Shown here one piece after another: positions 1-19,352 of a DNA stretch of 63,126 nucleotides (the first letter of the stretch is position 1; every line of letters begins with the position of its first letter). Location of the stretch: contig NZ_AKZI01000113.1 in the NCBI RefSeq assembly GCF_000293785.1, positions 1 through 63,126 on the forward strand, written 5' to 3'. The notes below the pieces were generated by a model. That model saw nothing but the letters and a program-made list of their open reading frames with translations. It made no database searches and had not been told where the DNA came from. Source of the DNA: Rhodovulum sp. PH10 (GTDB lineage Bacteria; Pseudomonadota; Alphaproteobacteria; Rhizobiales; Xanthobacteraceae). A program made the position numbers and the translations under genes.

Positions 1-49
1 GCGGCTCCGGCGCAGCCCCGTCGGAGTTCCCAAACGGGCTCTGAGCGCG

Positions 50-124
50 TCAGCGCAGGCCGAGGAAGGACAGAATGGCGAGAACCACCACGACCAAGCC
101 GACGAGATAAATGATGCTGTTCAT
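50..124 (-). CDS. 24-residue single-pass membrane miniprotein
   Basis: This very short gene encodes 24 residues that are almost entirely one hydrophobic helix (MNSIIYLVGLVVVVLAILSF) ending in Leu-Arg. The start is supported by a strong AGGAGG ribosome binding site six bases upstream of the ATG on the minus strand. Longer readings of the same frame continue upstream as Arg-rich low-complexity sequence with no start signal, so I take the short form. Similar tiny membrane peptides are, as I recall, widespread in alphaproteobacteria with no assigned role. It is divergent from the gene at 483. Confidence 0.65.
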   Translation of the reverse strand: MNSIIYLVGLVVVVLAILSFLGLR

Positions 125-482
125 GCGTTGCCTCCTGCGCACGGGCCGCTCCCGCGCGGCCGAACGGAGGGACAACGGGGCATGATGGTGATGGTTCCTG
201 CGGCTGGAACTCGGGTGGCGGGGGCGAGAGACGGCCGTCGAGAGAGGCCGTGGCGAGAGGCGGTCGAGACGGTGGCCGTCGAGACGGCTGCCGCGTGATG
301 CGCCATCACGCGACGCGTCACCTCGTGAGGCGCACGCCGGCGGCGTGCTTAAGCATGCATGCGCGTTTTCCTTGACCGTGCGGGAGCGCCCGGGTAGCGA
401 AGATTTGGTTTGCTCGAAATTCGTTGATGCTCGGCCGCGTCCGCTTTTTCCGTGAGCCGGACGCTCCGAACGGAGAGACGTG
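125..482. other. Divergent intergenic region
   Basis: This 358-base gap separates the divergent miniprotein gene and the gene at 483, so it should hold promoters for both. An 11-base word GGCCGTCGAGA recurs between about 230 and 290. I see no RNA gene and no convincing -35/-10 pair. Confidence 0.4.
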
Positions 483-719
483 ATGCGTACCCTCTTCGCT
501 GTTCTGGTCGTCGTTCTTCTTCTCTTCACGCTGTCGCGGCTGCCTTATCCCGGCGCGCCCAAGATGCCGGCGGCGCCCAAGCCCGCACCCGCCGTGGCGG
601 CCGCACCGGCCGAGGAGCCCGCGCCGCCGCCGGCGCCGAAATACGTCACCACCCGCGAGTGCGCCCACGGCTATTTCGGCAGCCGGAGCTGCAAGGAAGT
701 GACCACCGTAAAACCCTGA
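483..719 (+). CDS. Small exported or membrane-anchored Pro/Ala-rich protein
   Basis: A 78-residue protein of unknown function. Residues 1-20 form a hydrophobic signal or anchor helix (MRTLFAVLVVVLLLFTLSRL). Residues 25-53 are an Ala/Pro linker. The C-terminal 25 residues hold two Cys (in REC and SCK) that could form a disulfide outside the cytoplasm. The ATG at 483 follows a GGAGAG site at good spacing; a GTG one codon earlier is also possible. It lies just before the terminase genes but on base composition and content looks like an ordinary host gene. Confidence 0.6.
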   Translation: MRTLFAVLVVVLLLFTLSRLPYPGAPKMPAAPKPAPAVAAAPAEEPAPPPAPKYVTTRECAHGYFGSRSCKEVTTVKP

Positions 720-834
720 CGCGGCCGCTTTTCCGCCCGCCGGGTTTTTCTTCGGCGCCGCATCTCGTGGGATCGCCCCGCCGGGCCGACCTCTCGGCCC
801 GCGGGCCTCGTTTTCGTTCAGCGCAAGCGACGCC

Positions 835-1380
835 ATGCCGGACACGCGACCGATCCGAACGCTCGCGGCCGACGAGCGCGCCGCCCTGCGCCGCGCCTAT
901 GAAACCGCCGGGACGACGCTGAAGGGCGTCGCAAAAGACTTCGGCGTCTCGCCGTCGAGCCTGACGCTCGTCGCCGAGCGGGAAGGCTGGCGGCGCGGCG
1001 GCACTGCGGCTTCGCGCCCGAAAAGCAAGCCGCCGCAGGCACGGGTCCGCAGACAAAAGAAACGCTCGATGGCCGACCGGCTGGAGCGGCTGCTCGCCAA
1101 AGAGATTTCCCGTGTCGAGGCGGTGCGCCGCGACGCCGCCGCGCCCGACGTCGCCGACGCCGAGCGCGTCGCCCGCACGCTCGAGCGCCTCACCGACACG
1201 CTGGGAAAAGTGCGCCGGCTGCGCGAGCCCGAGGCCCGGGAGCCCGATGACGATCTGCCCCGCGACATCGACGAGTTCCGTCGCGTGCTTGCGCGCCGCA
1301 TTGCGGAGCTCGTGCAGGACGAGGACGACGGCGCGGGTGCTGGAGGCGTTGAGCCCGGCGAGCCTGACGCGTCTGGCTGA
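835..1380 (+). CDS. GTA/phage small terminase-like protein with helix-turn-helix
   Basis: A 181-residue protein directly before, and overlapping, the large terminase gene. Residues 11-50 contain a helix-turn-helix stretch (LKGVAKDFGVSPSSLTLVAE) of the kind used by small terminases to bind packaging-site DNA. The rest is rich in Arg, Glu and Asp and probably helical, with repeated ERLxxxL heptad-like patterns between residues 80 and 130. In GTA clusters gp1 occupies this position. Its assignment rests mainly on position plus the HTH, since small terminases diverge fast. The last 44 bases overlap the GTG start of the large terminase, which suggests translational coupling. Confidence 0.6.
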   Translation: MPDTRPIRTLAADERAALRRAYETAGTTLKGVAKDFGVSPSSLTLVAEREGWRRGGTAASRPKSKPPQARVRRQKKRSMADRLERLLAKEISRVEAVRRDAAAPDVADAERVARTLERLTDTLGKVRRLREPEAREPDDDLPRDIDEFRRVLARRIAELVQDEDDGAGAGGVEPGEPDASG

Positions 1381-2614
1381 CGATTTTGCGATCTTTGCGC
1401 ATGCCCATCAGGAGCATCGCGACGCCGGCAACGACGGCACGCCCTGGACCACCTGGCTGGTGCTCGGCGGGCGGGGCGCCGGAAAAACCCGGCTCGGCGC
1501 CGAATGGGTGCGCGCGCTGGTCGGCGGCATTCCGCCCTGGGCGGACCACGCCTATGGCGCGCTGGCGCTGATCGGCGAGAGCGAGCGCGACGCTCGCGAC
1601 GTGATGGTGGAGGGGGCTTCGGGGCTGTTGAAGATCTCGCCGCCGCGCGAGCGGCCGGTGTGGATCGCCACGCGCCGCCGGCTGGAATGGCCGAACGGCG
1701 CGGTCGCCCAGATCTTTTCCGCGGAGGATCCCGACAGCTTGCGTGGCCCGCAGTTCGAGGCCGCCTGGTGCGACGAGCTGGCGAAATGGCGCCACGCCGA
1801 GGCGGCGTTCGACATGCTGCAGTTCGGGCTGCGGCTCGGGCCGTCGCCGCGCCAGATGATCACCACCACGCCGCGGCCGATCCCGCTGATCCGCCGGCTG
1901 ATCGCCGATCCGCGCACGCGGGTGACGCGGGCCGGCACCGCCGCCAACAGGGCGCACCTGTCGCCTGCCTTTCTGGAAACCGTGGTCGCGCGCTATGCCG
2001 GCACGCGGCTCGGCCGCCAAGAACTCGACGGCGAGCTGATCGAGGACCGTCCCGATGCGCTGTGGTCGCGCGGGCTTCTGGAGGCCTGCCGGATTTCTGC
2101 CGCGCCGCCGCTCGGCCGGATCGTGGTGGGGCTCGATCCGCCGGGCTCCTCGCGCCGCACGGCGGATGCCTGCGGCATCGTCGCCGCGGGCAGGGCCGAG
2201 GACGGCACGGTGTTCGTGCTGGAGGACGCGTCCGCAAACGGCCTCACGCCGTCCGCCTGGGCGGCGCGGGCGATCGCACTCTATCGCCGGCTCGCGGCCG
2301 ACGCGCTGATCGCCGAGACCAATATGGGCGGCGAGATGGTGAAGACCGTGCTGCGCGAGCTCGATGCCTCGGTGCCGGTCGTCGAGGTGCACGCGACGCG
2401 CGGCAAATGGGTGCGGGCCGAGCCGGTCGCCGCGCTCTACGAGCAGGGTCGGGTGAAGCATGTCGGCGCCTTCCCGGCGCTCGAGGACGAGATGTGCGAT
2501 TTCGGGCTCGACGGGCTGTCGTCGGGCCGCTCGCCCGACCGGCTCGACGCTTTGGTGTGGGCGGTGACGGCCTTGATGTCCGGCCGTGGCCGGCCGCGGG
2601 TGCGGCAGCTGTGA
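1337..2614 (+). CDS. Large terminase subunit (GTA gp2-like)
   Basis: The DNA-packaging motor of a GTA or tailed phage. It pumps DNA into a prohead and cuts it. The GTG at 1337 gives 425 residues, the usual GTA gp2 length; the frame stays open further upstream but that part is an Arg/Ser-rich shadow of the small terminase. Walker A (GGRGAGKT) is at about residues 44-51. A Walker B-like segment (FEAAWCDEL) is near residue 130, and the C-terminal nuclease domain opens with IVVGLDPPGSS carrying its metal-binding Asp. All motifs look intact. Oddly, no portal, prohead protease or capsid gene follows, although this motor docks on the portal. Confidence 0.9.
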   Translation: MLEALSPASLTRLADDFAIFAHAHQEHRDAGNDGTPWTTWLVLGGRGAGKTRLGAEWVRALVGGIPPWADHAYGALALIGESERDARDVMVEGASGLLKISPPRERPVWIATRRRLEWPNGAVAQIFSAEDPDSLRGPQFEAAWCDELAKWRHAEAAFDMLQFGLRLGPSPRQMITTTPRPIPLIRRLIADPRTRVTRAGTAANRAHLSPAFLETVVARYAGTRLGRQELDGELIEDRPDALWSRGLLEACRISAAPPLGRIVVGLDPPGSSRRTADACGIVAAGRAEDGTVFVLEDASANGLTPSAWAARAIALYRRLAADALIAETNMGGEMVKTVLRELDASVPVVEVHATRGKWVRAEPVAALYEQGRVKHVGAFPALEDEMCDFGLDGLSSGRSPDRLDALVWAVTALMSGRGRPRVRQL

Positions 2615-2638
2615 TGCTTTATACGAAGGGCGCGGGCA

Positions 2639-3430
2639 TCACGGCGCGGCCGGGCTGCCGACCGAACTGCCGAGTGCGCGGGCGGTGTCGACGATCCAGC
2701 CGCGGTAGCGGATCAGCGGCGTCACGCCGGTGAGCCCGCCGCAGCCGGCCGAGAGTTTTGGCCCGGTCGACCAGCTCACCACGCCGGCGATCGCCGGAGC
2801 GGCGCCGAGCGAAAAAACCGGTGCGCCGGAATCGCCGGTGCAGGCGCCGGCCCCCGGCCGCTCGCCCTTGGTCGCCGGATCCATCAAGCGGAGCTGCAAC
2901 GTGCCCGGCCTGCCGGTCGCGATCAGATCGGCGGCGCGCACGGTGCCGCCGCTGCGGCCGTCGCCGCGCACCGCGACGCCCATGCCGGCGACCGTGAACC
3001 TTTGGCCGACCGACAGCGTCTCGAGCCTTGCCAGCGGGGCCGGCGAAAAGGTCTCCGGCAGCGACGCCGCCGTCTTCATCAGCGCGACATCGGCGGTCGC
3101 CCGGTGCCCGAGCAGGCTTTTCATGTCGAAGCCGGGATGGCGGGCGATGGTCGCGACGTCGAGCAGCGTCGGCTGCCGCGCCGCGTCGAACGTCACCAGC
3201 TTGTAGTCGGAGCCCGGCTGCACGCAGTGCGCCGCCGTCAGCACGAGGTTTTTCGCGAGCACCGCGCCGGTGCAGGACGTGCCGTGCGAGCCGACGATCA
3301 GCACGACGTGGCGGGCGAGCGAAGCCGGCGCGTCGGCCGCGCCGACCATCGCGGCGGCGGGACGAGCCTGCGTCACGACGAGCGACACGAGCAGCGGAAG
3401 ACACAGCCGCGAGGCGGGGAGGGCGCGCAT
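2639..3430 (-). CDS. Secreted trypsin-like serine protease (S1 family)
   Basis: A 263-residue secreted chymotrypsin-fold protease. Residues 1-27 are a signal peptide ending in an Ala-rich cleavage site (RPAAA). The catalytic triad is complete: His68 in LTAAHC, Asp114 in ADVALMK and Ser201 in GDSGAPVF, and paired Cys surround them. An earlier in-frame ATG at 3472 would add 14 residues before the signal peptide. The gene lies on the strand opposite to the GTA genes, filling the 870-base interval between large terminase and head-tail connector. In known GTA clusters portal, prohead protease and capsid lie there. It is not a prohead protease, which has a different fold and no signal peptide, so I infer host-type cargo or a replacement. 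Confidence 0.88.
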   Translation of the reverse strand: MRALPASRLCLPLLVSLVVTQARPAAAMVGAADAPASLARHVVLIVGSHGTSCTGAVLAKNLVLTAAHCVQPGSDYKLVTFDAARQPTLLDVATIARHPGFDMKSLLGHRATADVALMKTAASLPETFSPAPLARLETLSVGQRFTVAGMGVAVRGDGRSGGTVRAADLIATGRPGTLQLRLMDPATKGERPGAGACTGDSGAPVFSLGAAPAIAGVVSWSTGPKLSAGCGGLTGVTPLIRYRGWIVDTARALGSSVGSPAAP

Positions 3431-3484
3431 GCGCGCGAGGAACCGCAGCCGGCCCGGCTTGTCAACATCCATCGGAAAAACCCC

Positions 3485-4054
3485 ATGGCCATGCTTCTCC
3501 AACCTCCCGCCGCGGAGCCCTTGTCGCTCGCCGAGGCAAAGCTCGTCCTGCGGGTGGAGCACGACACGGACGACGATTTGATCGCCACGTTGATTGCGGC
3601 GGCGCGCCGGCATGTCGAGGCGGTGACCCGGCGGGCGCTCCTCGTCCAGACTTGGCGGCTCGCCCGCGACGCCTGGCCCGCGAGCGGCCGGATCGCGGTG
3701 CTGCCGGCGCCCTTGCGCACGGTGGTCGCGGCACGGGTGTTCGACGCCGCCGGCACCGCTCGGGCGATCGACCCGGAGATTTTCACGCTCGACCCGACGA
3801 ACGCGCCCGGCGTGATCGCGGTGGCTCCGCACGTGCCGCGCGCGCCCGGCCGGCGCACCGCCGGCATCGAGATCGACGTTTCGGTCGGCTATGGCGAGAC
3901 CGCCGCCGAGGTGCCGGCGCCGCTCGTCCAGGCGGTGCGGATGCTGCTCGCTCATTGGTACGCGAACCGCGCGGTGGTCGCCGAGACGAGCGCCCAGCCC
4001 TTGCCGCTCGGCGTCGCCGCGCTGCTCGCGCCGTGGCGGGTGCTGTTGCCATGA
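3485..4054 (+). CDS. Head-tail connector protein (GTA gp6-like)
   Basis: A 189-residue protein resembling the phage gp6-like head-tail connector family (phiE125 gp8 type). It forms the ring below the portal that joins head and tail. The N-terminus shows the family pattern of a short hydrophobic start followed by SLAEAKLVLRVEHDTDDDLI and helices ending in RHVEAVTRRAL. The middle part carries beta-rich segments and the C-terminus another helix (LVQAVRMLLAHWYANR). The ATG at 3485 is chosen because upstream sequence belongs to the divergent protease promoter. The stop overlaps the ATG of the next gene. The presence of a connector without a portal gene nearby is unusual. Confidence 0.8.
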   Translation: MAMLLQPPAAEPLSLAEAKLVLRVEHDTDDDLIATLIAAARRHVEAVTRRALLVQTWRLARDAWPASGRIAVLPAPLRTVVAARVFDAAGTARAIDPEIFTLDPTNAPGVIAVAPHVPRAPGRRTAGIEIDVSVGYGETAAEVPAPLVQAVRMLLAHWYANRAVVAETSAQPLPLGVAALLAPWRVLLP

Positions 4055-4371
4055 TGCGCGATCCGGGACGCCTGAACCGCCGCCTCGTGCTGGAGGCGCC
4101 GGCCGAGACCGACGACGGCGCCGGCGGCGTCGTCCGCACATTTGCCGAGGTCGCCACGCTGTGGGCCGCGGTGACGCCGGTCTCCGCCACCCATGGCAGC
4201 GAGGCCGATGCACACGGTGCGACGGTCGCCTGGCGGATCGTGATGCGCGCGCCGCGCGAGATCACCACCCGCCATCGCCTCCGGCTCGGCGCCCGGATCT
4301 TGCGCGTGCTGGCGGTGCGCGATCCGGGTTTCGGCTTTCTCGAGATCGACGCCGAGGAGTGGACCGACTGA
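4051..4371 (+). CDS. Head-tail adaptor / head closure protein (GTA gp7-like)
   Basis: A 106-residue protein of the phage head-tail adaptor (head closure, SPP1 gp16-like) family, which seals the connector before the tail attaches. The opening RDPGRLNRRLVLEAPAE and the later TLWAAVTPVSA and RIVMRAP segments are typical of the family. The ATG overlaps the stop of the connector gene by one base (ATGA), which indicates coupling. An alternative start is the next codon, also ATG. It sits in the standard GTA order. Confidence 0.82.
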   Translation: MMRDPGRLNRRLVLEAPAETDDGAGGVVRTFAEVATLWAAVTPVSATHGSEADAHGATVAWRIVMRAPREITTRHRLRLGARILRVLAVRDPGFGFLEIDAEEWTD

Positions 4372-4437
4372 CGCGTTCGGCGTCGCCGCGCCTCGCACAC
4401 CACCGCTTCCTTCTCCACCAACCGAGGTGACAAAAAA

Positions 4438-4845
4438 ATGACAGAGGCCGCGGTGGCGCTGCGCAGCGCCGTGCGTTCCGCGCTCGTTGCCGACGGCGCG
4501 CTGGTCGCGCTGCTCGGCGGCGCGCGGGTTTTCGACGAGGTGCCGCGCGGCGCTTCGTTTCCTTATGTGACCCTCGGCGAGGCGCGGGTGACCGACTACG
4601 GCTCCGACGAGGCGCCGGCGACCGAGCACGCGCTGGTGCTGCATGCCTGGTCGCGCCAGGGCGGCCACCGCGAGGCGCATCTGATCGCCGGCGCGCTGCT
4701 GCAGGCGCTCGACGACGCCGACCTGTCGCTCGCCGGCCACCGGCTGATCAATCTGCGCTTCGCGCTCGCCGACGTGAGACGCGAGGCGGACGGCCTCACC
4801 CACCACGCCCAGGTGCGCTTTCGCGCCGTCACCTCGCCGGCGTGA
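4438..4845 (+). CDS. DUF3168 tail terminator-like protein (GTA gp8-like)
   Basis: A 135-residue DUF3168 family protein. Family members act as tail completion or terminator proteins at the head-proximal end of the tail tube. Visible hallmarks are AALRSAVRSALVAD near the N-terminus, RVFDEVPRGASFPYVTLGE in the middle and the helix REAHLIAGALLQALDDADLSL. A GAGGTGAC ribosome binding site lies before an A-rich spacer and the ATG. The gene keeps the GTA order between adaptor and major tail protein. Confidence 0.85.
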   Translation: MTEAAVALRSAVRSALVADGALVALLGGARVFDEVPRGASFPYVTLGEARVTDYGSDEAPATEHALVLHAWSRQGGHREAHLIAGALLQALDDADLSLAGHRLINLRFALADVRREADGLTHHAQVRFRAVTSPA

Positions 4846-4909
4846 CACGCCTCGCTTGGTGTGCCGCGCCGCGGCGAGCCGCTTTCGCAATACGCTTCGG
4901 AGAGCTGCC

Positions 4910-5317
4910 ATGACGGCCCAGAAAGGCAAGGATCTGCTGCTCAAGCTGGAGGAGGGCGGCAGCTTCGTGACGGTCGCCGGCCTGCGCTCGCGCCGCATCG
5001 CCTTCAACGCCGAGACGGTCGACACCACGCATGCGGAGTCGGTCGACCGCTGGCGCGAGCTTTTGGATGGCGCGGGCGTCAAGCGCGCCTCGCTGTCCGG
5101 CCGCGGCCTGTTCGTCGACGCGACGTCCGACGCCCTGCTGCGCGAAATCTTCTTCGAGGGGGCGGTGCGCACCTGGCGCGTGGTGATCCCGGACTTCGGC
5201 ACCGTCACGGGGCCGTTCCAGATCACCAGCCTGGAATTTGCCGGCGAGCACAATGGCGAGGTGACCTTCGAGCTGGCGCTCGAGTCGGCCGGCGCGCTCG
5301 CCTTCGCCGCGACGTGA
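4910..5317 (+). CDS. Major tail protein (GTA gp9-like, TP901-1 family)
   Basis: A 135-residue tail tube protein that would polymerise into the tube of a siphovirus-type tail. It opens with the family signature AQKGKDLLLKLEEGGSFVTV followed by AGLRSRRIAFNAETVDTT and ends in FELALESAGALAF. The ATG at 4910 follows GGAGAG; upstream codons of the same frame look like non-coding sequence. After this gene the GTA series is broken by about 4.8 kb of minus-strand genes before gp10 resumes at 10149. Confidence 0.87.
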   Translation: MTAQKGKDLLLKLEEGGSFVTVAGLRSRRIAFNAETVDTTHAESVDRWRELLDGAGVKRASLSGRGLFVDATSDALLREIFFEGAVRTWRVVIPDFGTVTGPFQITSLEFAGEHNGEVTFELALESAGALAFAAT

Positions 5318-5330
5318 GATCGCCGCGCCG

Positions 5331-5369
5331 GACAAGAAAAAGGACCGGGGCGAGACGCGCCCCGGTCCT
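5331..5369 (-). terminator. Intrinsic terminator between converging genes
   Basis: A perfect 12-base-pair stem (AGGACCGGGGCG, 5341-5352, with its complement at 5358-5369) encloses a 5-base loop. Read on the minus strand it is followed by TTTTCTTG, so it looks like a Rho-independent terminator for the DUF992 gene. It may also stop + strand transcription leaving the major tail gene, though no U-tract follows on that side. Confidence 0.8.
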
Positions 5370-5421
5370 GTCACGATACGGTCGTATCCGATCGTCGCCG
5401 TCGGCGGCGCCGGTCGTTCTC

Positions 5422-5892
5422 TCACTCGAGCGTCAGGCCGGTGATGCCGAGCGCCACATTGACGCCGACCACGTTCTGCAGCGCGAGCGGCTGCAGCGCG
5501 ATCCCGCGGGCCGGGCCGCCGAGCAGCTCGGTGCTGCTGCCGGCGCCGGCACCGATCGCCAGCGCGCTGCTGGTGCCGGTGTAGCGGCCGACCAGGCCGT
5601 GCCGCTGGATGCGGCGGGTCGGCGCCCAGACGCTCCAGGTGAGACGGCTGCCTTCGGTGATCCCGACGTCCAGGCCCACCCGCGAGATGGCGCCGTGATA
5701 GACCTCGCGGCGCCGGCTGTTGTTGGCCCGGAAGACACACCGCACCGGCTGCGTCGAGCCGACCACCAGCCCCACCGCGGGCGCCACCTCGCAGCTCAGA
5801 ACGCCGATGTTCATCGCCGACTGCGCCGCCGCCGGCAGCGGCGCGAGAAGCGCAGCCGCTGCGGCCACGAGAGCCACTTTCAACCGAGACAT
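5422..5892 (-). CDS. Exported DUF992 family protein
   Basis: A 156-residue DUF992 protein of unknown function. A signal peptide spans residues 1-24 (MSRLKVALVAAAAALLAPLP, then AAAQS). The mature part shows the family pattern: one Cys in GVLSCEVAPAVG, a second in VRCVF, then YHGAISRVGLDVGIT, a WSVWAP segment, Gly/Ala-rich stretches and a hydrophobic C-terminus. The two Cys may pair in the periplasm. It converges with the major tail gene and shares a terminator hairpin with it. DUF992 genes are ordinary chromosomal genes in rhizobia, so here it is best seen as non-GTA content within the GTA region. Confidence 0.85.
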   Translation of the reverse strand: MSRLKVALVAAAAALLAPLPAAAQSAMNIGVLSCEVAPAVGLVVGSTQPVRCVFRANNSRRREVYHGAISRVGLDVGITEGSRLTWSVWAPTRRIQRHGLVGRYTGTSSALAIGAGAGSSTELLGGPARGIALQPLALQNVVGVNVALGITGLTLE

Positions 5893-6228
5893 ATCCCCTC
5901 CGATCGATCCGGACACGCGCCGTCGCGACTCGCGACCGGCAAAAACGGATCGCTCCGGAGCTAAAATATCATCCTCGCAGGGAGTCAATGGACTGCGTGG
6001 CGGCGCGAGCGGCGAGACCCGTGAGGTGTTGCCGCCGTGCTCCGTCCGAGCCGATCGGCCGCATCTTGCCTTGGTTCGGGCACGATCCGGTGAAATGATG
6101 AGGTCCGCGACCATTGTTTTGTCGGCCGCCTCCTGCAGCGCCCGTGCTGTTTCGCGCGCACGGAGTTTGCTCGCGCAGGCGTCACGCGTGTGGTTCTCGT
6201 GCGTGAAAATTCACGCGCGCCGCGCGAC
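5893..6228. other. Intergenic region upstream of the DUF992 gene
   Basis: A 336-base gap between two minus-strand genes. It should carry the promoter of the DUF992 gene. A shortish AT-richer stretch (AAAATATCATCC, about 5960-5975) lies 70-80 bases before its start and could be part of that promoter. I see no hairpin or RNA gene. Confidence 0.35.
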
Positions 6229-7590
6229 TCATGCGCCGTTCGTGCAGTCCTTGCGCAGCATCGTCAGAAAACGGCCGACCTCGGCCTTCAGCCGCCCGCT
6301 CTGCTCCGACAGCGAGAGCGCCGCCTGATGCACGTCGCCGGCGGCCGTTCCGGTTTCCGCCGCGCGCGTGTTCACCTCGGTGATGTGGCCCGTCACCTGG
6401 GCGGCGCCGGCGGCGGCGTGCTGGATGTTGCGGGCGATCTCCTGGGTGGCGATGCCCTGCTGCTCGGCGGCGGCGGCGATCGCCCCGGTGATCTCGGAGA
6501 TGCGCAGGATGGTCGCGCCGATCTCCTTGATCGCGGCGACCGAGTCCTCGGTGGCGCTGCGCATCCCGGAGACGTGCGAGGCGATCTCCTCGGTCGCCTT
6601 GGCGGTCTGGGTGGCGAGCGCCTTCACCTCCTGCGCCACCACGGCGAAGCCCTTGCCGGCCTCGCCGGCGCGCGCCGCCTCGATGGTCGCGTTGAGCGCG
6701 AGCAGGTTGGTCTGGTCGGCCACGCTGCCGATCAGCTGGACGATGTCGCCGATGCGGCCGGCGGCCTGCGACAGCGCGGTGATGCGCGCGTCGGTCTTCT
6801 CCGCCTGGGCGACCGCCTCGCCGGCGATGCGGCTCGAGTCGTGAACCTGCCGGGTCACCTCGGCGACCGAGGAGGTCAGCTCCTCGGCGGCAGCGGCGAC
6901 CGAGCCGACATTGGTGGAGGCCTCCTCCGAGCCGGCGGCGACCGCCAGCGCGACCTCCTGGGTGTCGTCGGCGGTCTTGTCGAGCGTGCGCGACGCCCCT
7001 TCGAGGTGGCACGAGGCTTCGGCGACCGAATTGGCGATGCCGCCGATCTCGCGCTCGAAGGCGGCGGCGATGCGCTCCAGCGCATTCTGCTTGTCGCGCT
7101 CGCCGGCCTCCAGATAGACCGAGATCGCGAAGTCCATGTCGAGCATCGCCGCCTTGACGAAGGCGCCGAGCAGCTTCGCCTTCTTCTCGGCGCCGCGGCC
7201 GAACAGGCCGGACGGGATCGCGTGCTCGATCGTCGCGAGCAGGCGCACCGCGACGAAGGAGTAGCCGCCGATGTACCAGCGCGGCTCGAGACCGAGGGTG
7301 TTGTGCGCCTCGCCGATCCGCCGCACCGAGCGCACGTAGTCGTCGCTGAACTCGGCGGCCGCGATGGTGTCCCAATGCGCGAGCTGCTTGTCGCGGGCGT
7401 GCCGGATGTGGCGGTCGTCGCGGAACATCTTCGCCGCCGGCGGGTGGCGCTTCACCTGGCGGTAGAAGTCGTCGAGGATGCCGGGCAGATGGGCGGCGAT
7501 CAGCGGCCGAAGCTCGCGCAGCAGCGCGCGGGTCTCCGCGTCGATTTCCACGAACGCCAAACGCTCGTCGAGCTGGTGGGAAGCGGTCAT
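6229..7590 (-). CDS. Globin-coupled methyl-accepting chemotaxis protein (HemAT-like)
   Basis: A 453-residue soluble chemoreceptor. Residues 1-175 are a protoglobin-type sensor domain that should bind heme; His96 in IGEAHNTLG is the likely proximal heme ligand and Tyr/Trp residues follow in [10 protein letters not shown]. Residues 190-445 are the methyl-accepting signalling coiled coil, with the conserved hairpin tip [20 protein letters not shown]. There is no membrane segment and no CheR-binding pentapeptide at the C-terminus. By family analogy it senses oxygen or another gas and signals to CheA/CheW. The start at 7590 ([10 protein letters not shown]) is preferred to an ATG 17 codons upstream because the globin domain begins right after it. 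No chemotaxis core genes are in the window. Confidence 0.9.
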
Positions 7591-7815
7591 GTGCGGGAGT
7601 CCGTTGCCTCGGTCGTTCGCAGCCGCTCGAACTATCCGCAACTTCCGGTTAAATGAGCATTAAGTGCGAAGGTCTCTCGTTACTTATCTCGGGTTGTTCC
7701 GGCCCGGCCCGGCCGGTGTCGGGCCGTCCGGTCCTGCGATGGCGGCGCGCCCGCGAACGGTCGGCCCGCGGGACGCGGTGGCGATGACGCGGTGGCGATC
7801 CGGCCGCCGCCCGGA

Positions 7816-9912
7816 TCAGGCGGCGCGGATCTTCTGCAGGAACCCGTCGATCCGGTGGCGCAGCGTGTCGGACTGGCGGTTCAGCACCTCGGCGCTGGTC
7901 TTCACGCCTTCGGCCGCCGCGCCCGTCGCATCGGCATCGGTCGTCACGCCGGCGATGTTGTCGGACACGGTCATGGTGCGGCGCGCGGCCTCCTGGGTGT
8001 TGCGGGTGATCTCCTGGGTCGCCGCACCCTGCTGCTCGACCGCGGCGGCGATCGAGCTCGCGACCGACGACACCTCGGCGATCGTGCTGCCGATCCGCCG
8101 CATCGCCGCGAGCGCCTGGTCGGCGACCTCGCGGATGGCGCCGACCTGCGAGGAGATGTCCTCGGTCGCCTTGGCGGTCTGGCCGGCCAGCGTCTTGACC
8201 TCGGAGGCGACCACGGCGAACCCCTTGCCGGCCTCGCCGGCGCGCGCCGCCTCGATCGTCGCGTTCAGCGCCAGAAGGTTGGTCTGGTTGGCGATCGCCG
8301 TGATCAGGCTGACGATCTCGCCGATCCGGTGCGCCGCCTCGGTGAGGCCCTGGACGGTGCCGTCGGTCTCCTCGGCCTCGGTCACCGCGCGCTTGGCGAT
8401 GGTCGCCGCGTGGGAGACCTGACGGCCGATCTCTTCCACCGAGGCGCTGAGCTCCTCGGAGGCGGCCGCCACGGTCTGCACGTTGTGCGAGGCGTCGGTG
8501 GAGGCGGCGGCCGCTTCGCGCGCCTGGTCGTTGGTCCGGGCGGCGGTGCCGGTGAGGATGTTGGAGGTCTCCTGCATCTCGCCGGCCGCGCCGGCGAGCG
8601 CCCGCAGCGCCTCGCCGATGCCGGCCTCGAACTCGGCGATGTGGCGCTCGATCGTCTGCTGGCGTTGCACCGCCTGCTCGCGGTTGCGGGTCTCGGCCGC
8701 CTCGATGTGGGCCTTCTCCTCGGCGTTCTGCTTGAAGGTGGCGAGCGCGCCGGCGAGGCTGCCGATCTCGTCCGAGCGGCCGCGATAGGGCACCTCGGTC
8801 GAAAGATCGCCGGCGGCGACCTTCAGCATCGCGGCGCGGATCGCCTGTAGCGGCCCGATCACCCGGCGCGACACCAGCACGATGCCGCCGGCCGCGATCA
8901 CCACCGCGCCGACCAGGAGCACCAGCCGCAGGATCAGATCGGTCCGCGCGGCGTCGACCATATCGCGTGCGTGGCTCTCGGCGACGTCGAGGGCGGTCTC
9001 GGCGACCTCGAGGACGGTCTTCAGACGCGGCACCGAATCGAGGGTCCATTCGCTGGTCGCCATCGCGATCGGCTGGTCGGACGAGAGCATCGCCACGATC
9101 CGCTTGCGCTTGTCGACGAACGCCGGGGCGAAGAAGGACGCCTCGGCCCTGTCGATCGCCTGCACCACGGGCGAGTCCGGGCCGAGCCCGACCCGCAGCG
9201 TCTCCAGCATGGCGAAGGCGCCCCGCCCGTGGCCGACCAGCTCGGCGAGCTGCTCCAAGCCCTCGGGCGACAGCCGCTTCTTGAAGGCGATCGCGTTGGA
9301 GAGCGTGACCGACATGTTGCCGCCGTCCTCCCGCGCCATCCAGGCGGCGTCCTTGATCAGCATCATCTGATCGACGAACGCGTCCTGGCCGCGGGCGCTG
9401 GCTTCGACCGCCCCGCTCATCCGCTGGATCAGCGCGAGCATCGCGGTGGCGGTCGACTGCAGATCCTCGGCGAGCGCCGGGCGCCGCTCGGCTTTCGGCT
9501 TGGCCATGTCGGCGGCGGTGTCGCGATAGAGATCGCCGAGCCTGGCGACCAGCCGGTCGAACTCCGGCAGGTCGGTCTCGCGCCCGGCAAAGTCGATCGC
9601 GGGAAGCATGCGCGACGCCGCCTGCAGCGCCGGCCAGCCGGCCGCGCGCGCGTCGTCGATCTGCTTGCGCTGGCCGGGGTCGATGCTGCCGTCGAGGCCG
9701 AGCGCCCGCACCGTGAGCGCGCGATCGAGCCGCAGGTTCGCCATGGCGCGGAACATCCGCCCCTGCACGTCGGCGACCGCAGCGAGCCGGCTCGCCGCGG
9801 CGAGCTCTCGCGAGGTGCTCCACGCGCCGAGTGCCAGCACCAGAACGAGCCCGGCAGCCATCAGCGCGATGACCGCCTTCAAGAGAATGTTCGACGACAC
9901 CCGGTTCAGCAT
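7816..9912 (-). CDS. Transmembrane methyl-accepting chemotaxis protein
   Basis: A 698-residue chemoreceptor. A membrane helix at about residues 12-30 leads into a roughly 290-residue periplasmic helical ligand domain. A second membrane helix ([19 protein letters not shown]) follows near residue 325, then a HAMP linker with [10 protein letters not shown], and the signalling domain with the tip [20 protein letters not shown]. The ATG at 9912 has an AGAGG site six bases upstream. The ligand is unknown. It lies head to tail with the globin-coupled receptor; their signalling tips are nearly identical, so both probably feed one CheA/CheW array. Together they split the tail gene series of the GTA-like cluster. 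Confidence 0.92.
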
Positions 9913-10148
9913 GATTGCCTCTGAGTGAGAATTATTCACATCGCACGCTGCACCGAACCTCTTAAATGGACATGAATACGAGCTGGGGGTGAAAGAGAAA
10001 GATGTATTCGATGAATGAATACGTAAAACATCTAGCCGCGGCGGGCTAATAACTATGAAAAAGGAATTGCCGAAAAACCGGTTCGCGCCGGCGCCCGTGC
10101 CGGGATGCCCCGGTGGTCGACCCCGCTCCGGCGACGAGGAGGCGTGTC
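9913..10148. other. AT-rich intergenic region between chemoreceptor and gp10
   Basis: This 236-base divergent gap is much richer in A and T than its surroundings, especially 9925-10080, with words such as GAATTATTCAC and GATGTATTCGATGAATGAAT. It should carry promoters for the chemoreceptor on one side and for the second half of the GTA-like cluster on the other. The unusual composition may reflect the junction of an insertion. Confidence 0.5.
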
Positions 10149-10550
10149 ATGGCCAACCGCCATCGCGGTGAGATCGACGCCGAGCTGAACGGCGTGTCGC
10201 GCCGGCTGGTGCTCACGCTCGGCGCGCTCGCCGAGCTCGAGGCCGCGTGCGGCGCCGACGATCTGGTGGCGCTCGCCGACCGCTTCGCCTCCGGCCGCAT
10301 CAAGGCGGCCGATCTGGTGCGGATCGTCGGCGCCGGCCTGCGCGGCGCAGGCGATGCCGTGACCGATGCCGAGGTCGCGGCGATGACGACGCCGGGCGGC
10401 GCCGCCGGCTTTGCCGCGATCGCCGCCGACCTTTTGGTCGCGACCTTCGGCGCCGGCTCGCCGGTTGGCTCGGCGGCTCCGGGCGGAGAGCGCGGGGATG
10501 CGAGTGCTCAGAAAAACCCTCCGGCGCCGCAGGACAGGGGCAACGGTTGA
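10149..10550 (+). CDS. GTA gp10-like tail assembly protein (GTA TAM family)
   Basis: A 133-residue protein of the small family found after the major tail gene in GTA clusters and often called gene transfer agent family protein. The core (RHRGEIDAELNG, LTLGALAELEAACGADDLVA, ADLVRIVGAGLRGAG) is helical and likely acts in tape measure or tail assembly. The ATG at 10149 is chosen because GAGGAGG lies seven bases upstream; an ATG further up lacks a site. The last 35 residues are low-complexity. Its stop overlaps the TTG start of the next gene. Confidence 0.82.
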   Translation: MANRHRGEIDAELNGVSRRLVLTLGALAELEAACGADDLVALADRFASGRIKAADLVRIVGAGLRGAGDAVTDAEVAAMTTPGGAAGFAAIAADLLVATFGAGSPVGSAAPGGERGDASAQKNPPAPQDRGNG

Positions 10551-10738
10551 AACCGTTTCCCTGGGACGAGGCGATCGGTGTCGGCCTCGCCGTCCTGCGG
10601 CTTTCTCCCGACGTGTTTTGGCGCACCACCCCGCGCGAGCTCGCACTGGCGCTGCGGGCGCGGCACGGGCTTGCACCCGCGCCGCCCGACCGGGCGGTGC
10701 TCGCCGACCTGATGAGGCGGTTTCCCGATGCCCGATGA
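10547..10738 (+). CDS. Phage tail assembly chaperone (GTA gp10.1-like)
   Basis: A 63-residue protein that matches the small GTA tail chaperone (rcc01693 type). Hallmarks are PFPWDEAIGVGLAVLRLSPD near the start, then FWRTTPRELALALRARHG and a short helical tail. The only sensible start is the TTG at 10547, which overlaps the gp10 stop (TTGA) and follows an AGGACAGGGG site, implying translational coupling. Such proteins shield the tape measure before tube assembly. A start this rare is easily missed by gene callers. Confidence 0.78.
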   Translation: MKPFPWDEAIGVGLAVLRLSPDVFWRTTPRELALALRARHGLAPAPPDRAVLADLMRRFPDAR

Positions 10739-11339
10739 CACCGACAAGCTCGTGCAGACGAGCGAAAGCCTCGCCACCGCGACCGAGACGGCGGATGCGC
10801 TGTCGCTCAAGCTCGGCGATCTGGAGAGCGGCGCCGATGCGGTGGCCCGCGCCACCACCCGCGCCTTCACGCAGGCCGTCTCGAGCGGTCGCCAGCTCGA
10901 CGACGTGCTGAAGTCGCTGGCGCTGCGCCTTTCCGATCTCGCGCTCAAATCCGCGCTGCAGCCGCTCACCGGCGGGATCTCCTCGTCGCTGCAGTCTCTC
11001 GTCGGGCTGTTCGGCAGCTTCGGCGGCGGCACGCAGCTGACCGCCGCGAGCGGGGCGATCAAACCGTTCGCGACCGGCGGGGTGATCGGCACGCCGACCT
11101 ATTTTCCGCTCGCGAGCGGCGGGCTCGGGCTCGCCGGCGAGGCGGGGCTGGAGGCGATCGTGCCGCTCGCCCGCGGCGCCGACGGCGCGCTCGGCATCGC
11201 CGCGAGCGGGGGCGGGGGTACCGCGACGCAGGTGACGGTCAACATCGCCGCGCAGGACGTTTCCAGCTTCCGCGGCTCCGAGGTTTATCTCACCGGCCAG
11301 ATCGCCCGCGCCGTCGCCCGCGGGCGGCGCGGACTCTGA
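10728..11339 (+). CDS. Tail tape measure protein (GTA gp11-like)
   Basis: A 203-residue tape measure protein. GTA tape measures are short (about 220 residues), so this length is normal. It opens with a helical Ser/Thr/Ala-rich region and then has the family segment LKSLALRLSDLALKSALQPL. A Gly-rich hydrophobic part follows (GGVIGTPTYFPLASGGLGLA, then GEAGLEAIVPLARG), typical of the C-terminal part of short tape measures. It overlaps the tail chaperone gene by 11 bases. Confidence 0.85.
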   Translation: MPDDTDKLVQTSESLATATETADALSLKLGDLESGADAVARATTRAFTQAVSSGRQLDDVLKSLALRLSDLALKSALQPLTGGISSSLQSLVGLFGSFGGGTQLTAASGAIKPFATGGVIGTPTYFPLASGGLGLAGEAGLEAIVPLARGADGALGIAASGGGGTATQVTVNIAAQDVSSFRGSEVYLTGQIARAVARGRRGL

Positions 11340-11360
11340 TCGAGCAAACCGGGGGTCGGG

Positions 11361-11996
11361 ATGGCCGCCTTCCACGAGGTGCTGTTTCCACTCGACATCG
11401 CGCTGAGAAGCGCGGGCGGGCCGGAGCGGCGCACCGAGATCGTCACGCTCGGCTCCGGCCGCGAGGAGCGCAACGCGCGCTGGGCGCATTCGCGCCGCCG
11501 CTGGGACGCCGGCTACGGCGTGCGCACCATCGCGGCGTTGTCGACGGTGGTGGCCTTCTTCGAGGAGCGGCGCGGCCGTTTGCACGGCTTTCGCTGGCGC
11601 GATCGGCTCGACCATTCGTCCGGCGCGGGCCCGCCGAGCCCGCTCGACCAAGCCCTCGGCACCGGCGACGGCGAGACTGCGGTGTTTCCGCTGGTGAAGA
11701 TCTACGGCTCGGTGCATGCGCCTTATCGGCGGACCATCGAAAAGCCGGTGGCGGGCAGCGTGCGGGTCGCGGTCGGCGGGATCGAGCAGACGGAAGGCGC
11801 AGCCTTCGTGTGCGACACGACGACCGGCGCGGTGACGTTTCTCGGCGGCCACCTGCCGGTCGCGGGCGCCGCCGTCACCGCGGGCTTTCTGTTCGACGTG
11901 CCGGTGCGGTTCGACACCGATTATCTCGAGGTCGATCTGACGGCGTTCGAGGCGGGGGCGATCCCGAAAATTCCGCTGGTCGAGATCAGGCCGTGA
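11361..11996 (+). CDS. Distal tail protein, DUF2460 family (GTA gp12-like)
   Basis: A 211-residue DUF2460 protein forming the ring at the tail tip. Family marks are FHEVLFPLDIALRSAGGPER, the repeated Arg-rich HSRRRWDAGYGVRT, FFEERRGRLHGFRWRDRLDH and the C-terminal VRFDTDYLEVDLTAFEAG. It lies in the normal order gp11-gp12-gp13 with a 21-base gap on each side, consistent with one transcript. Confidence 0.92.
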   Translation: MAAFHEVLFPLDIALRSAGGPERRTEIVTLGSGREERNARWAHSRRRWDAGYGVRTIAALSTVVAFFEERRGRLHGFRWRDRLDHSSGAGPPSPLDQALGTGDGETAVFPLVKIYGSVHAPYRRTIEKPVAGSVRVAVGGIEQTEGAAFVCDTTTGAVTFLGGHLPVAGAAVTAGFLFDVPVRFDTDYLEVDLTAFEAGAIPKIPLVEIRP

Positions 11997-12015
11997 CCGA
12001 CGTCGGAGGTCTTTC

Positions 12016-12870
12016 ATGCGCACTCTTCCGGCCGCTTTGCAGGCAAAGTTGGAGACCGGCGTCACCACGCTGTGCCGCTGCTGGCTGATCCGCCGACGCG
12101 ACGGCGTCGTGCTCGGCTTCACCGATCACGACGAGGACGTTTCGCTCGGCGGGATCGTCTGCCTCGCCGGCACGGGCCTCGACGCCTCGGAGGCGACTGC
12201 ACGGCTCGGGCTGCAGATCGACGGCGGCGAGGTGTCGGGCGCGCTCGCCTCCGACTCGCTCGCGGAGACCGACCTCGCCGCCGGACGATACGACGCCGCA
12301 ACGGTGGAGACGCATCTGGTCGACTGGAGCGAGCCGGCGCTCTCGGTGCTGCTCTTCGCCGGCACGCTCGGCGAGGTGCGCCGCGAAGGTCTCGCCTTCA
12401 CCGCGGAGCTGCGCGGCATCGCCGACCGCTTGGCGCAGACCAGCGGCCGCCTCTACACCGCCGACTGCACCGCAAGTCTCGGCGACGCGAAATGCCGCGT
12501 GGACCTTTCCTCCGCCGCGCATCGCGCCGACGGCACCGTGACGAGCTTGCTCGGTACCTCGATGATGCGGGTGTCGGGCTGCGAGGCATTTGCCGACGGC
12601 GCGTTCACCGCCGGCCGCCTGACATTTGCGAGCGGCGCCAATGCGGGCGTCGAGAGCGAGGTGAAGCGCCACGCGATCGATCCACAGGGTGTCGTCATCA
12701 CCCTGTGGCAAGCGATGCCGGAGCCGATCGCGCCGGGCGATGGATTCGTGATCACGTCGGGCTGCGACAAGCGCTTCGTCACCTGCCGCGACCGCTTTGC
12801 CAACACGGCGAATTTCCGCGGATTTCCGCACATTCCCGGCAACGATTTCGTCATCCGCTATCCGTCCTGA
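12016..12870 (+). CDS. Tail hub protein, DUF2163/BR0599 family (GTA gp13-like)
   Basis: A 284-residue baseplate hub protein. The N-terminal half is DUF2163, with the conserved TLCRCWLIRRRDGVVLGFTD and DHDEDVSLGG segments. The C-terminal 80 residues are the phage BR0599 domain, ending in GCDKRFVTCRDRFANTANFR and GFPHIPGND. Two pairs of Cys (YTADCTA, DAKCRV, GCDK, VTCRD) are as in homologues. In the structure of the Rhodobacter capsulatus particle this protein binds an iron-sulfur cluster through Cys residues, which I recall but did not check here. A GGAGG site precedes the ATG. Confidence 0.92.
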   Translation: MRTLPAALQAKLETGVTTLCRCWLIRRRDGVVLGFTDHDEDVSLGGIVCLAGTGLDASEATARLGLQIDGGEVSGALASDSLAETDLAAGRYDAATVETHLVDWSEPALSVLLFAGTLGEVRREGLAFTAELRGIADRLAQTSGRLYTADCTASLGDAKCRVDLSSAAHRADGTVTSLLGTSMMRVSGCEAFADGAFTAGRLTFASGANAGVESEVKRHAIDPQGVVITLWQAMPEPIAPGDGFVITSGCDKRFVTCRDRFANTANFRGFPHIPGNDFVIRYPS

Positions 12871-12893
12871 TTCACGGCGCTTCGAGACCCACC

Positions 12894-13328
12894 ATGATCG
12901 AACGAGAAAGAATCGTCGCGGAGGCGCGGCGCTGGATCGGCACGCCTTATCGCCACCAAGCGTCGCTGTGCGGCGTCGGTTGTGACTGCCTCGGCCTCGT
13001 ACGCGGCGTGTGGCGCGCGCTCTACGGGGGCGAGCCGGAAGCGCCGCCGCCCTACACGCCGGACTGGGCGGAGGCGCGCGGCCGCGACACGCTGCTCGAG
13101 GCGGCGACACGCCATCTGATCAGGATCGAGCCGTCGGAAGTATCGCCGGGCGACGTGCTGCTGTTTCGCTGGCGTGACAACCTTCCGGCCAAGCACGCGG
13201 CGATCGTCACGACGCGCGAGACGATGGTGCATGCGCACGACGGCGCACGTGTCGCCGAGGTGGCGATCGCGCCATGGTGGCGGCGAAAGCTCGCCGCGGC
13301 GTTCCGCTTTCCCGGTGTCGAAGCGTAG
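12894..13328 (+). CDS. Tail-tip peptidase, NlpC/P60 family (GTA gp14-like)
   Basis: A 144-residue NlpC/P60 cell-wall peptidase of the tail tip. The probable catalytic Cys is Cys32 in GCDCLGLVRGVW and the probable His is His101 in AKHAAIV. It would open the murein of a target cell during entry. The ATG at 12894 begins the family N-terminus (IERERIVAEARRWIGTPYRH). Gene order gp13-gp14-gp15 is intact and spacing is short. Confidence 0.92.
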   Translation: MIERERIVAEARRWIGTPYRHQASLCGVGCDCLGLVRGVWRALYGGEPEAPPPYTPDWAEARGRDTLLEAATRHLIRIEPSEVSPGDVLLFRWRDNLPAKHAAIVTTRETMVHAHDGARVAEVAIAPWWRRKLAAAFRFPGVEA

Positions 13329-13336
13329 GACCTGCC

Positions 13337-16300
13337 ATGGCCGCTCTCGTTCTCTCCGTCGCCGGCGCCGCGGTCGGCAGCGTGTTCGGGCCGATCGGGG
13401 CGATCGCCGGGCGGATCGCCGGCGCGGTCGCCGGCAATCTGATCGACCACGCGCTGCTCGGCGGCGGCAACGACCGAACGGTGGAGGGCCCGCGCCTCGC
13501 CGACCTCGACGTGATGGCCTCGACCGAAGGCGCGCCGATTCCGCGTGTCTACGGCCGGGTGCGCCTGTCCGGCCAGGTAATCTGGGCGACCGATATCGAG
13601 GAGGTGATCTCGACCACCACCGAGACGACCGGCGGCAAGGGGATGGGAGCGTCGAGCACAACCACGACCACCACCTATACCTACTATGCCAACATCGCAG
13701 TCGGCCTGTGCGAAGGGCCGATCGGCCGGGTGGGCCGCATCTGGGCGGACGGCAGTCTGCTCGATCTCGATGGCCTCGTGGTGCGCACCTATTCCGGAGC
13801 CGAGGACCAGACCGCCGATCCGCTGATCGTCGCAAAGGAGCCGGACGGCGCGCCGGCCTATCGCGGCCTCGCTTACGTGGTGTTCGAGCGGCTGCCGCTC
13901 GCTCAGTTCGGCAACCGCATTCCGCAGCTCTCCTTCGAGGTGCTGCGTCCGGTCGGCGCGTTGGAGAAGATGGTGCGCGCGGTGACGCTGATCCCCGGCA
14001 CCACCGAGTTCGGCTACGAGCCCTCCACCGTGGTGCAGGCCCGCGGCCGCGGCGCCTCGAGCCCGGAGAACCGCCACGTCACCACTGCGCCGTCGGACGT
14101 CGAGGTCGCGCTCGACGAGCTCGCCGCCGTGTGCCCGAATCTCGAACGGGTCGCGCTGGTGGTCGCCTGGTTCGGCGACGACCTTCGCACCGGCGTGTGC
14201 ACCGTGCAGCCGGGGGTCGACGACGCGGCGAAAATCACTCATCCGGACACGTGGTCGGTGGCGGGCCTTTCGCGCGCCGAGGCCCATCTCGTCTCGCAGA
14301 TCGACGGCCGCCCGGCTTATGGCGGCACACCCTCCGACGACAGCGTCGTCCATCTGATCAGGTCGCTGAAGGCGCGCGGCTGGAAGGTGACGCTCTATCC
14401 GTTCGTGATGGTGGACATCCCGGCCGGCAACGGGCGGCCCGACCCGTGGAGCGATGCGGGCTCGCAGCCGGTGCATCCGTGGCGTGGCCGCATCACCTGC
14501 GATCCGGCGCCGGGTCGGCCCGGCTCGCCGGACGGCACTGCGGCCGCGCAGGCGCAGATCGATGCCTTTTTCGGTATCGGCTCGGCGACCCCCGACAATT
14601 ACCGAAAGCTCGTGCTGCATTGCGCCTCGCTCGCGGCGGAGGCGGGCGGTGTCGATGCGTTTCTGATCGGCTCGGAGCTGCGCAGCCTCACCCGCGTGCG
14701 CAGCGCCTCCGGCGTCTATCCTGCGGTCGAGGCGCTCGTGACACTCGCGGCCGAGGTGAAGGCGATGCTGGGCGCGGGCACGCTCGTCACCTACGGCGCC
14801 GACTGGACCGAATACGGCGCGCACGTGGTCGACGAGGCGGCCACCGAGATCCGCTTTCCGCTCGATCGTCTGTGGGGCTCGACCGCGATCGATGCGATCG
14901 GCATCGACGATTACGCGCCGTTGTCCGACTGGCGTGACGGTGCCGATCATCTCGACCGCGCGCAAGCCGACACGCCCTACGACCGCGTCTATCTCGCCGC
15001 CAATGTCCGCGCCGGCGAAGCCTTCGATTGGTACTACGCCGACGATGCCGCACGCGCCGCGCAAGCCCGCACGCCGATCACCGACGGCCTGGAAAAACCG
15101 TGGATCCATCGCGCAAAAGATTTCTGGAACTTTTGGAGCAATCCTCATCACGAGCGGGTCGGCGGCGTCGAGCTTTCGGCACCGACCGCCTGGGTGCCGC
15201 AATCGAAGCCGATCTGGCTCACCGAGGTCGGCTGCCCGGCGGTCGACAAGGGCGCCAATCAGCCGAGCGTGTTTCCGGACACCAAATCGTCGGAGAGCGG
15301 CACGCCGTGGTTTTCCAACGGCCGTCGCGACGACGTGATTCAGCGCCGCAGCCTCGAGGCCGTTCTCACGGCATTCGATCCCGCGCTCGGCGCGACCGCG
15401 GGAAATCCGATCTCCTCGGTCTATGGCGGGCCGATGGTGGAGCCCTCCGCGATCCATCTGTGGACCTGGGACGCGCGGCCGTTTCCGATGTTTCCCGCCG
15501 CGACCGAGGTGTGGAGCGAGGGGCCGAACTGGGAGACCGGGCACTGGCTCACCGGCCGGCTCGGCGCGTGCCCGCTCGACGGGCTGATCGCGCAAATCCT
15601 GACCGATGCGGGCGTGACCGGCATCGACACCTCGGCGCTCGCCGACACGCTCGACGGCTATCTGATCGATCGGCCGATGACGCCGCGCGCTGCGATCGAG
15701 CCGTTGGCGCAGGCTTTTGCGTTCGACGCGGTGGCGGACGGGGCGACGCTGGCCTTTCGTCGTCGCGGTGGGCTTCCGGTCGCGGAAATCGACGAGAACG
15801 ATCTGATCACGTCGGACAGTGGCGCCTCGTCCAAGCTCGTCCGCGCGCAGGAGACCGAGCTGCCGGCCGCGGTCGCGATCGGCTTCACCGATCTTGCGAC
15901 CGACTATCGCCGCGCGGCGGTGCAGTCACGCAAGCTGGTCGGCGGCTCGATGGCGGTCTCCCAGGTCGATCTCGCCGCCGTCACCACCCGCAGCGCCGCC
16001 ACGCGGCGCGCAGAAATTCTGCTTCAGGACGCGTGGGCCTCGCGTGAGAGCGCCACGTTCGCACTGCCGCCGAGCCGGCTCGCATTGGCGCCCGGCGACG
16101 TGATCGGCCTCACGGTCGCCGGGCGGCGGCGGCTCGTCGAGGTGCGCGAGCTGGTCGATGCGGGCGCGCGCAGCGTCACGGCGCGGGCAATCGATCCGGA
16201 GGTGTTTTCGTTGCCACTGCCGCGGCTGGCCTGGAGCGCGCCGGTGATGGCGGCCTCCGCCGGCCCGCCGCATCTCCTCGTGATGGCGCTGCCGACCTTG

Positions 16301-17203: not shown

Positions 17204-17229
17204 TCATTTCCTCACAAGACGGGACTCTC

Positions 17230-19350: not shown

Positions 19351-19352
19351 CG

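Follow-up and report, generated by a model that had tools for sequence, protein, structure and literature searches.

The closest described systems are gene transfer agents (GTAs) of the type I resembling that of Rhodobacter capsulatus (RcGTA; Rhodogtaviriformidae), which, according to passages of PMC9662315, are present in many Hyphomicrobiales and have been inherited mostly vertically. We analysed a stretch of 63,126 nucleotides (the window) from Rhodovulum sp. PH10, which is the whole of contig NZ_AKZI01000113.1 (C113) in a draft genome (G000) of 4.83 Mb and 272 contigs. The best explanation of its GTA genes, to which we give a probability of about 0.87, is a complete RcGTA-like cluster of a Rhodoplanes species, with the head genes on another contig (C132), the small and large terminase subunits (TerS-TerL) moved behind the capsid, and the two contigs broken at a repeat. 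Such a cluster shares with the RcGTA-like GTAs the TerL, portal, protease, capsid, connector, tail tube, distal tail, hub and NlpC/P60 genes. It differs from them in the position of TerS-TerL, which is behind the capsid and not before the portal, in a TerL tree that contradicts the portal tree, and in being cut by antisense trypsin and chemoreceptor-like genes. The canonical GTAs of Nitrobacteraceae and Xanthobacteraceae, such as those of Variibacter (G033) and Rhodopseudomonas faecalis (L037), have the same gene set and the antisense trypsin gene between capsid and gp6, but their terminase is in front and no chemoreceptor-like genes were seen between their gp9 and gp10. Tardiphaga robiniae LMG 26467 (G030) also has TerS-TerL behind the capsid; unlike the window's host, it retains a second pair before the portal and has two capsid 3' pieces behind the capsid. 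Literature searches on rearranged GTA clusters, on GTAs with trypsin or serine proteases and on GTAs in Rhodoplanes gave no description that we recognised in the portions of text retrieved.

The window opens at a contig end, and the cluster starts 835 bases from this left edge of C113. The features from there to gp9 are given below; G001, G003 (Rhodoplanes serenus DSM 18633) and G004 are genomes of sister species.

1-42, strand not given: right half of a dispersed palindromic repeat of about 187 bp, the left half of which terminates C132
483-719, plus strand: gene for a small secreted-looking protein, also just upstream of gp1 in G001, G003 and G004
835-1380, plus strand: gp1, small terminase subunit TerS (phrog_1206, E 1.8e-5), kept beside TerL in relatives
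1337-2614, plus strand: gp2, TerL of the relocated lineage (PF03237, PF17289)
2639-3430, minus strand: exported trypsin-like (S1) protease (PF00089, 2.4e-22)
3485-4054, plus strand: gp6, head-tail connector (TIGR02215, PF05135)
4051-4371, plus strand: gp7, head completion protein (PF05521)
4438-4845, plus strand: gp8, tail completion protein (PF11367)
4910-5317, plus strand: gp9, major tail tube protein (TIGR02126; RcGTA tail tube 6tba, 1.2e-48)

The order given in a preliminary description of the window, TerS, TerL, antisense trypsin, gp6, gp7, gp8 and gp9 within 835-5317, is borne out by family matches, for gp1 through PHROG only; a Pfam search with gp1 (835-1380) gave no match. The gp1 of RcGTA is the small terminase too. 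It is also correct that genes for portal, protease and capsid are missing from the interval between TerL and gp6. The description went on to suggest that the cluster has no head genes, and this was not confirmed. A search of the source genome for a GTA-type portal, an HK97-like capsid and a prohead protease detected two portals (C132, C22), three HK97-type capsids (C50, C132, C22) and two prohead proteases (C132, C50), all three kinds being present on C132, which by synteny lies just left of the window. The C132 operon occupies 5686 to 2162 of the minus strand and is read towards base 1 of that contig; the portal comes first, two small genes follow, then protease and capsid, and the head genes are in open frames. 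The best solved relatives of its portal (3.3e-129; next 3.4e-22) and of its capsid (7e-89; next 5e-52) are RcGTA chains, as are the best matches of the tail tube and distal tail proteins of the window. The closest phage records reach only 57-60% to portal and TerL. The TerL of the window is the sole GTA-type TerL detected in G000 at E <= 1e-20. C22 (L009) and C50 (L010) carry two further HK97-type head loci, probably prophages, and neither was retained as a candidate for supplying the head: between the portals of C22 and the GTA the match is just 28%, over residues 47-295, and C50 has no PF04860 portal and a capsid 37-40% alike. The C22 capsid is itself RcGTA-like (3.5e-81) and falls little short of the C132 capsid in its similarity to that of RcGTA.

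These genes bear directly on the idea of a headless, tailocin-like particle, in which the tail survived a loss of the head genes. The absence of portal, protease and capsid from the window itself would fit it, and a tail gene block is common to tailocins and to this cluster. However, tailocins have none of capsid, portal and terminase, whereas the source genome has genes for all of these and for a protease; its RcGTA-type head genes have open frames and their counterparts adjoin TerL in three sister species, and terminase and connector are retained. We regard a headless particle as extremely unlikely, and the tailocin reading was dropped after the head genes turned up on C132.

Five Rhodoplanes genomes were mapped (G000 to G004), of which G000 and G002 have clusters that cross a contig break. 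Their order is portal, two small genes (x1, x2), protease, capsid, a spacer of 0.6-3.5 kb, the small secreted-looking gene, gp1, TerL, antisense trypsin and gp6; C132 holds the first part of this order and the window the second. In G001, G003 and G004 one contig carries both portal and TerL, in the same orientation and with the portal upstream, so that on unbroken sister contigs the head is followed by TerS-TerL, antisense trypsin and gp6. G002 has portal and TerL on different contigs, both close to an end, and G005 (58% complete) has neither. The flanks agree with this arrangement (the YcgN, EAL, chemoreceptor, regulator and kinase genes mentioned in this text carry putative names, given from reading the sequence without a family search). 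The portal is preceded in G003 and G004 by a YcgN-like gene known from the far flank of C132, and in G004 and G002 by part of an EAL-like gene. Seven trypsin regions were fetched from portal-less relatives: in five the trypsin gene adjoins the regulator and kinase genes known from the window's right flank, and in three of those five (3/7) the YcgN-like gene is 2-7 kb from trypsin on its opposite side; GTA genes had zero matches in all seven regions. The outer flanks of C132 and C113 are thus close together in relatives that lack the GTA, which argues that both belong to one chromosomal site.

The repeat accounts for the break. It is complete in contig C75 (G000:C75:21949-22135); window positions 1-42 are identical to its right part, and 40 bases near base 1 of C132, in reverse complement, are identical to its left part, so the assembly would have broken between C113 and C132 because this dispersed repeat is at both contig ends. 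The G000 assembly breaks repeatedly at the repeat: its arm has 68 matches in G000 at <=1 mismatch, and 32 of the 33 forward matches begin <=168 bases from the first base of a contig. Since the sister gene order, the complementary repeat halves and the shared outer flanks point the same way, the C132 head operon most likely lies directly upstream of the window in the source genome. The proposal that the head genes are elsewhere in the genome is therefore true of the assembly, where they are on another contig, but probably not of the chromosome, where they would adjoin the terminase. Likewise, portal and capsid would be adjacent in a corrected assembly, to judge from the relatives, yet the head would precede the terminase and the permutation would stay. 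A dispersed GTA, with the head operon at a distant chromosomal locus, would also leave the two halves on different contigs, and passages of PMC9662315 describe RcGTA genes in five loci. The order in G001, G003 and G004, the common flanks and the matching repeat halves speak against it, and we consider it quite improbable.

The relocated motor was followed through 80 named TerL loci; after removal of four that repeated fetched genomes, 76 were classified by a simple rule. TerL is followed by the portal in 62, three are permuted (L031, L033 with the portal out of view, and L045 with the tail out of view), five are stand-alone pairs and six are remnants, one of which (L065) is a cluster with its portal match in two pieces. 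Permuted clusters are thus found in the five mapped Rhodoplanes genomes, in G032, in Rhodopseudomonas sp. BR0M22 (L033) and in a metagenome-assembled genome of Hyphomicrobiales (L045). A TerL tree of 91 rows unites all nine relocated copies in one clade (100/98) and gives them five stand-alone TerS-TerL pairs as sister group (joint node 100/97); three more stand-alone rows fall elsewhere, and the front copy of Tardiphaga clusters with the front copies of Nitrobacteraceae. A portal tree of 36 hand-chosen portals out of 74 places Rhodoplanes, whose portals are one clade, together with L045 (96/90), and Tardiphaga and G032 inside the Nitrobacteraceae clade (100/99). With groups chosen post hoc, after the trees had been seen, the approximately unbiased (AU) test rejects placing the portals of the permuted hosts in a single clade, whether Tardiphaga is included (p 0.0005) or left out (0.0008), and it rejects joining the relocated TerLs to front copies, both for G032 and L033 (0.0009) and for these two with the Tardiphaga rear copy (0.0002).

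The GTA genes were accordingly not inherited vertically as one unit, nor is the cluster co-linear from gp1, gp2, portal, protease and capsid through gp6 to gp15, as TerS-TerL is behind the capsid and antisense genes lie between the blocks. The conflict between the trees means that the history of the motor is separate from that of the head, via transfer or via duplication and loss. The likeliest course is the gain of a second TerS-TerL pair behind the capsid, with Tardiphaga still in this two-pair state; the front pair would have been lost afterwards, and the rear pair may have passed between genera at least once. The same distribution could have arisen without transfer, by an ancient duplication of TerS-TerL in the family and parallel losses that left the rear pair, the front pair (in most) or both (in Tardiphaga). 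The two copies of Tardiphaga are compatible with this, as is the sister position of the relocated clade to five stand-alone pairs of the same family, three with a common downstream region. On the other hand, it requires repeated parallel losses and unites TerLs whose hosts' portals lie apart (AU p below 0.001); we see it as a real possibility, somewhat short of an even chance. The five sister stand-alone pairs, without adjoining head genes, are L024 and L025 (both G016), L030 (G008), L043 and L049. As a G016 copy, L043 and L049 share a downstream neighbour region, some of the pairs would be old residents.

The main interest of the cluster, beside the toxin-like cassettes of its relatives, is a motor that has a separate phylogeny and occupies a new position in the mapped Rhodoplanes; this suggests that the DNA-uptake part is swappable. 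Such a separately evolving motor contrasts with the picture of vertical inheritance in the sections of PMC9662315 cited above, and Tardiphaga, with two motors, is a natural experiment. Screens of draft genomes for the canonical order may call such clusters incomplete or headless.

Selection was assessed as the ratio of nonsynonymous to synonymous polymorphism (pN/pS) over the five Rhodoplanes genomes. It is 0.21-0.38 for the portal, 0.20-0.30 for TerL, 0.18-0.30 for the tail tube and 0.33-0.59 for the capsid, in contrast to 0.81-1.13 for the spacer gene. The structural genes are thus open and under purifying selection; stops were counted in some protease comparisons, and the one reported in the G003 portal is the natural gene end. 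The gp12 protein is 82-83% alike in G001, G003 and G004. This pattern supports a maintained GTA, as far as genes can indicate one.

Several points weigh against a complete and working cluster. The gap between C132 and C113 is spanned by neither a read nor a contig, and with 68 repeat-arm matches at many contig ends the repeat alone cannot select the partner of C113. The trypsin gene is at another site in two of the seven portal-less genomes (G008, G028), and the groups of the AU tests were, as said, post hoc. The gp1 gene evolves fast (pN/pS 0.52-0.89), which with the several antisense insertions could also indicate decay; gp12 has just a 44% match in G002 and is on a separate contig in G001. 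Finally, the particle itself is a prediction from the genes. A permuted cluster that is decaying, without a working particle, would explain the fast gp1, the weak gp12 match and the antisense host genes that cut the cluster into blocks, and degraded GTA loci do occur in relatives (e.g. L038, L044, L050 and L069). Set against the open structural genes under purifying selection across five genomes, with the spacer gene as contrast, decay appears unlikely. If the cluster is complete, assembly would proceed as in RcGTA, with C132 supplying the head, the window the motor and connector, and gp8 to gp15 the tail. Because antisense host genes separate the blocks, several promoters would probably be needed. 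No sigma-70-like site was found in window positions 1-20000, and no RNA family in the window or in locus L008. A search for a motif shared upstream of the gene blocks returned just G+C-rich 9-mers, in no more than 12 of the 15 regions, when five shuffles gave 8-10, and a common regulatory motif was dropped as a candidate; TGTCAA precedes gp6 in 12 of 32 loci.

The trypsin gene (2639-3430) is the sole match of its kind in G000 at E <= 1e-6. Its protein has a signal-peptide-like start, and the catalytic His, Asp and Ser are conserved in each of 45 aligned rows, one genome being represented twice. In 31 of the 47 named loci with both capsid and gp6 in view it lies between them, and all 36 copies are antisense. 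This placement is found in Nitrobacteraceae (7/7), Xanthobacteraceae (6/6), Methylobacteriaceae (4/4), Beijerinckiaceae (3/3), Salinarimonadaceae (2/2), Chelatococcaceae (1/1) and unplaced records (8/9), and in none of 15 loci from nine other families. Since the gene recurs between capsid and gp6, it marks no lost head, and it is no substitute for one. Within the family it is present in 21 of 22 portal-bearing genomes and in seven of 14 portal-less ones (three of the 14 being less than 85% complete), which makes an independent role probable; it would be a host gene and a bystander to the GTA. The existence of portal-less relatives is in keeping with the GTA gene loss in nodulating Rhizobiales described in parts of PMC7363004. 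A role as GTA accessory or lysis factor was considered, being attractive by position and because Caulobacter, according to passages of PMC13236601, uses the trypsin-like LypA and LypC to release its GTA; it is weakened by the presence of the gene in half of the portal-less genomes.

To the right of gp9 the window continues as follows.

5422-5892, minus strand: small protein that looks secreted, behind gp9 in each of the five mapped Rhodoplanes genomes
6229-7641 and 7816-9939, minus strand: two chemoreceptor-like genes, between gp9 and gp10
10113-10550, plus strand: gp10 (PF11836 'GTA-gp10'), kept in relatives
ending at 10738, plus strand: short gene downstream of gp10, kept in relatives
10728-11339, plus strand: gp11, short tape-measure protein (phrog_1716, 3.3e-13)
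11361-11996, plus strand: gp12, distal tail protein (TIGR02217; RcGTA 6tba, 5.6e-64)
12016-12870, plus strand: gp13, baseplate hub (TIGR02218)
12894-13328, plus strand: gp14, NlpC/P60 peptidase (TIGR02219)
13274-17203, plus strand: gp15, tail tip/host-specificity protein of 1309 aa, start codon provisional (aligned over 14-1307 in G003 and 1-1307 in G033)
17230-18333, plus strand: tail-fibre-like gene, same strand as the cluster
18385-19350, plus strand: gene without an assigned family, same strand as the cluster
19353-19964, plus strand: phrog_1544 gene
19995-20579, plus strand: right-flank host gene for a small protein, near the trypsin gene in portal-less relatives
20719-21390, plus strand: right-flank host gene, response-regulator-like
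21395-22858, plus strand: right-flank host gene, kinase-like

The preliminary description has full-length tail-tip genes through gp15, and gp10 to gp15 are in open frames over 10113-17203. A second interruption, which the preliminary description did not include, is formed by the three antisense genes at 5422-9939 that separate gp9 from gp10; chemoreceptor-like genes occupy this gap in the mapped sister species too, with three copies in G004. In the remnants L038, L044, L050 and L069, gp1, TerL and the front of the portal are followed by a counterpart of the gene at 19353-19964.

Open reading frames (ORFs) that have a linker resembling NPDQPRVPAG...GGQWT and end in variable, nuclease-like sequence sit between the structural genes of related GTA clusters, often upstream of small immunity-like genes. 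Two BLAST clusters comprise 16 ORFs in 12 loci and 15 ORFs in eight loci, the latter with one DUF2019 member (1.1e-40). A motif scan of the window and all fetched loci gave 28 matches in 18 loci (two being one genome twice), all on the GTA strand, and zero in the window or C132. In sister Rhodoplanes a nuclease-like cassette directly follows gp9, at L018:7097-8038 in G002, around 1856 of L012 in G001, apparently interrupted, and in part only at G004:C14:20083-20340; in the window this site holds the antisense genes. Against 60 related genomes the G002 cassette has 23 matches including itself, and 14, among them the 10 best, are inside GTA clusters by coordinates. In four loci the portal runs into a toxin-like C-terminal end.

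L073:11455-13374, portal with a toxin-like end
L080:11351-13159, portal with a toxin-like end
L091:4319-5986, portal with a toxin-like end
L105:9303-11024 and 12099-12863, portals with toxin-like ends

A CdiA-CT RNase A domain is above the Pfam cut-off in the L073 and L080 fusions, and behind the fused portals of all four loci are displaced portal 3' pieces, which resemble the orphan tips of Rhs and contact-dependent inhibition (CDI) loci. A toxin family search with ten proteins gave no match at E <= 0.01 for six; one of the ten is immunity-like and one has a weak PD-(D/E)XK match below the cut-off. The nearest described counterparts are the MuF toxins of phage head modules (PMC5576092, PMC3482391), and the term 'gene transfer agent' is absent from the MuF passages of these papers; a literature search on GTAs and polymorphic toxins returned nothing that we recognised as these cassettes in the text portions found. 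It is conceivable, if doubtful, that the Hyphomicrobiales GTA is built of exchangeable modules, with a motor cassette that moves and is replaced and gaps that dock toxin/immunity cassettes, a few of them joined to the portal, so that toxin-carrying particles would favour immune recipients. Rhodoplanes shows the moved motor in five mapped genomes, and the nuclease-like cassette in some sister species but not in the window. If true, the toxin cassettes would link gene transfer to kin discrimination. Repeated capsid 3' pieces are found behind the full capsid, with small cargo genes between them, in L032 (5968-6171, 7358-7582), L023 and L077.

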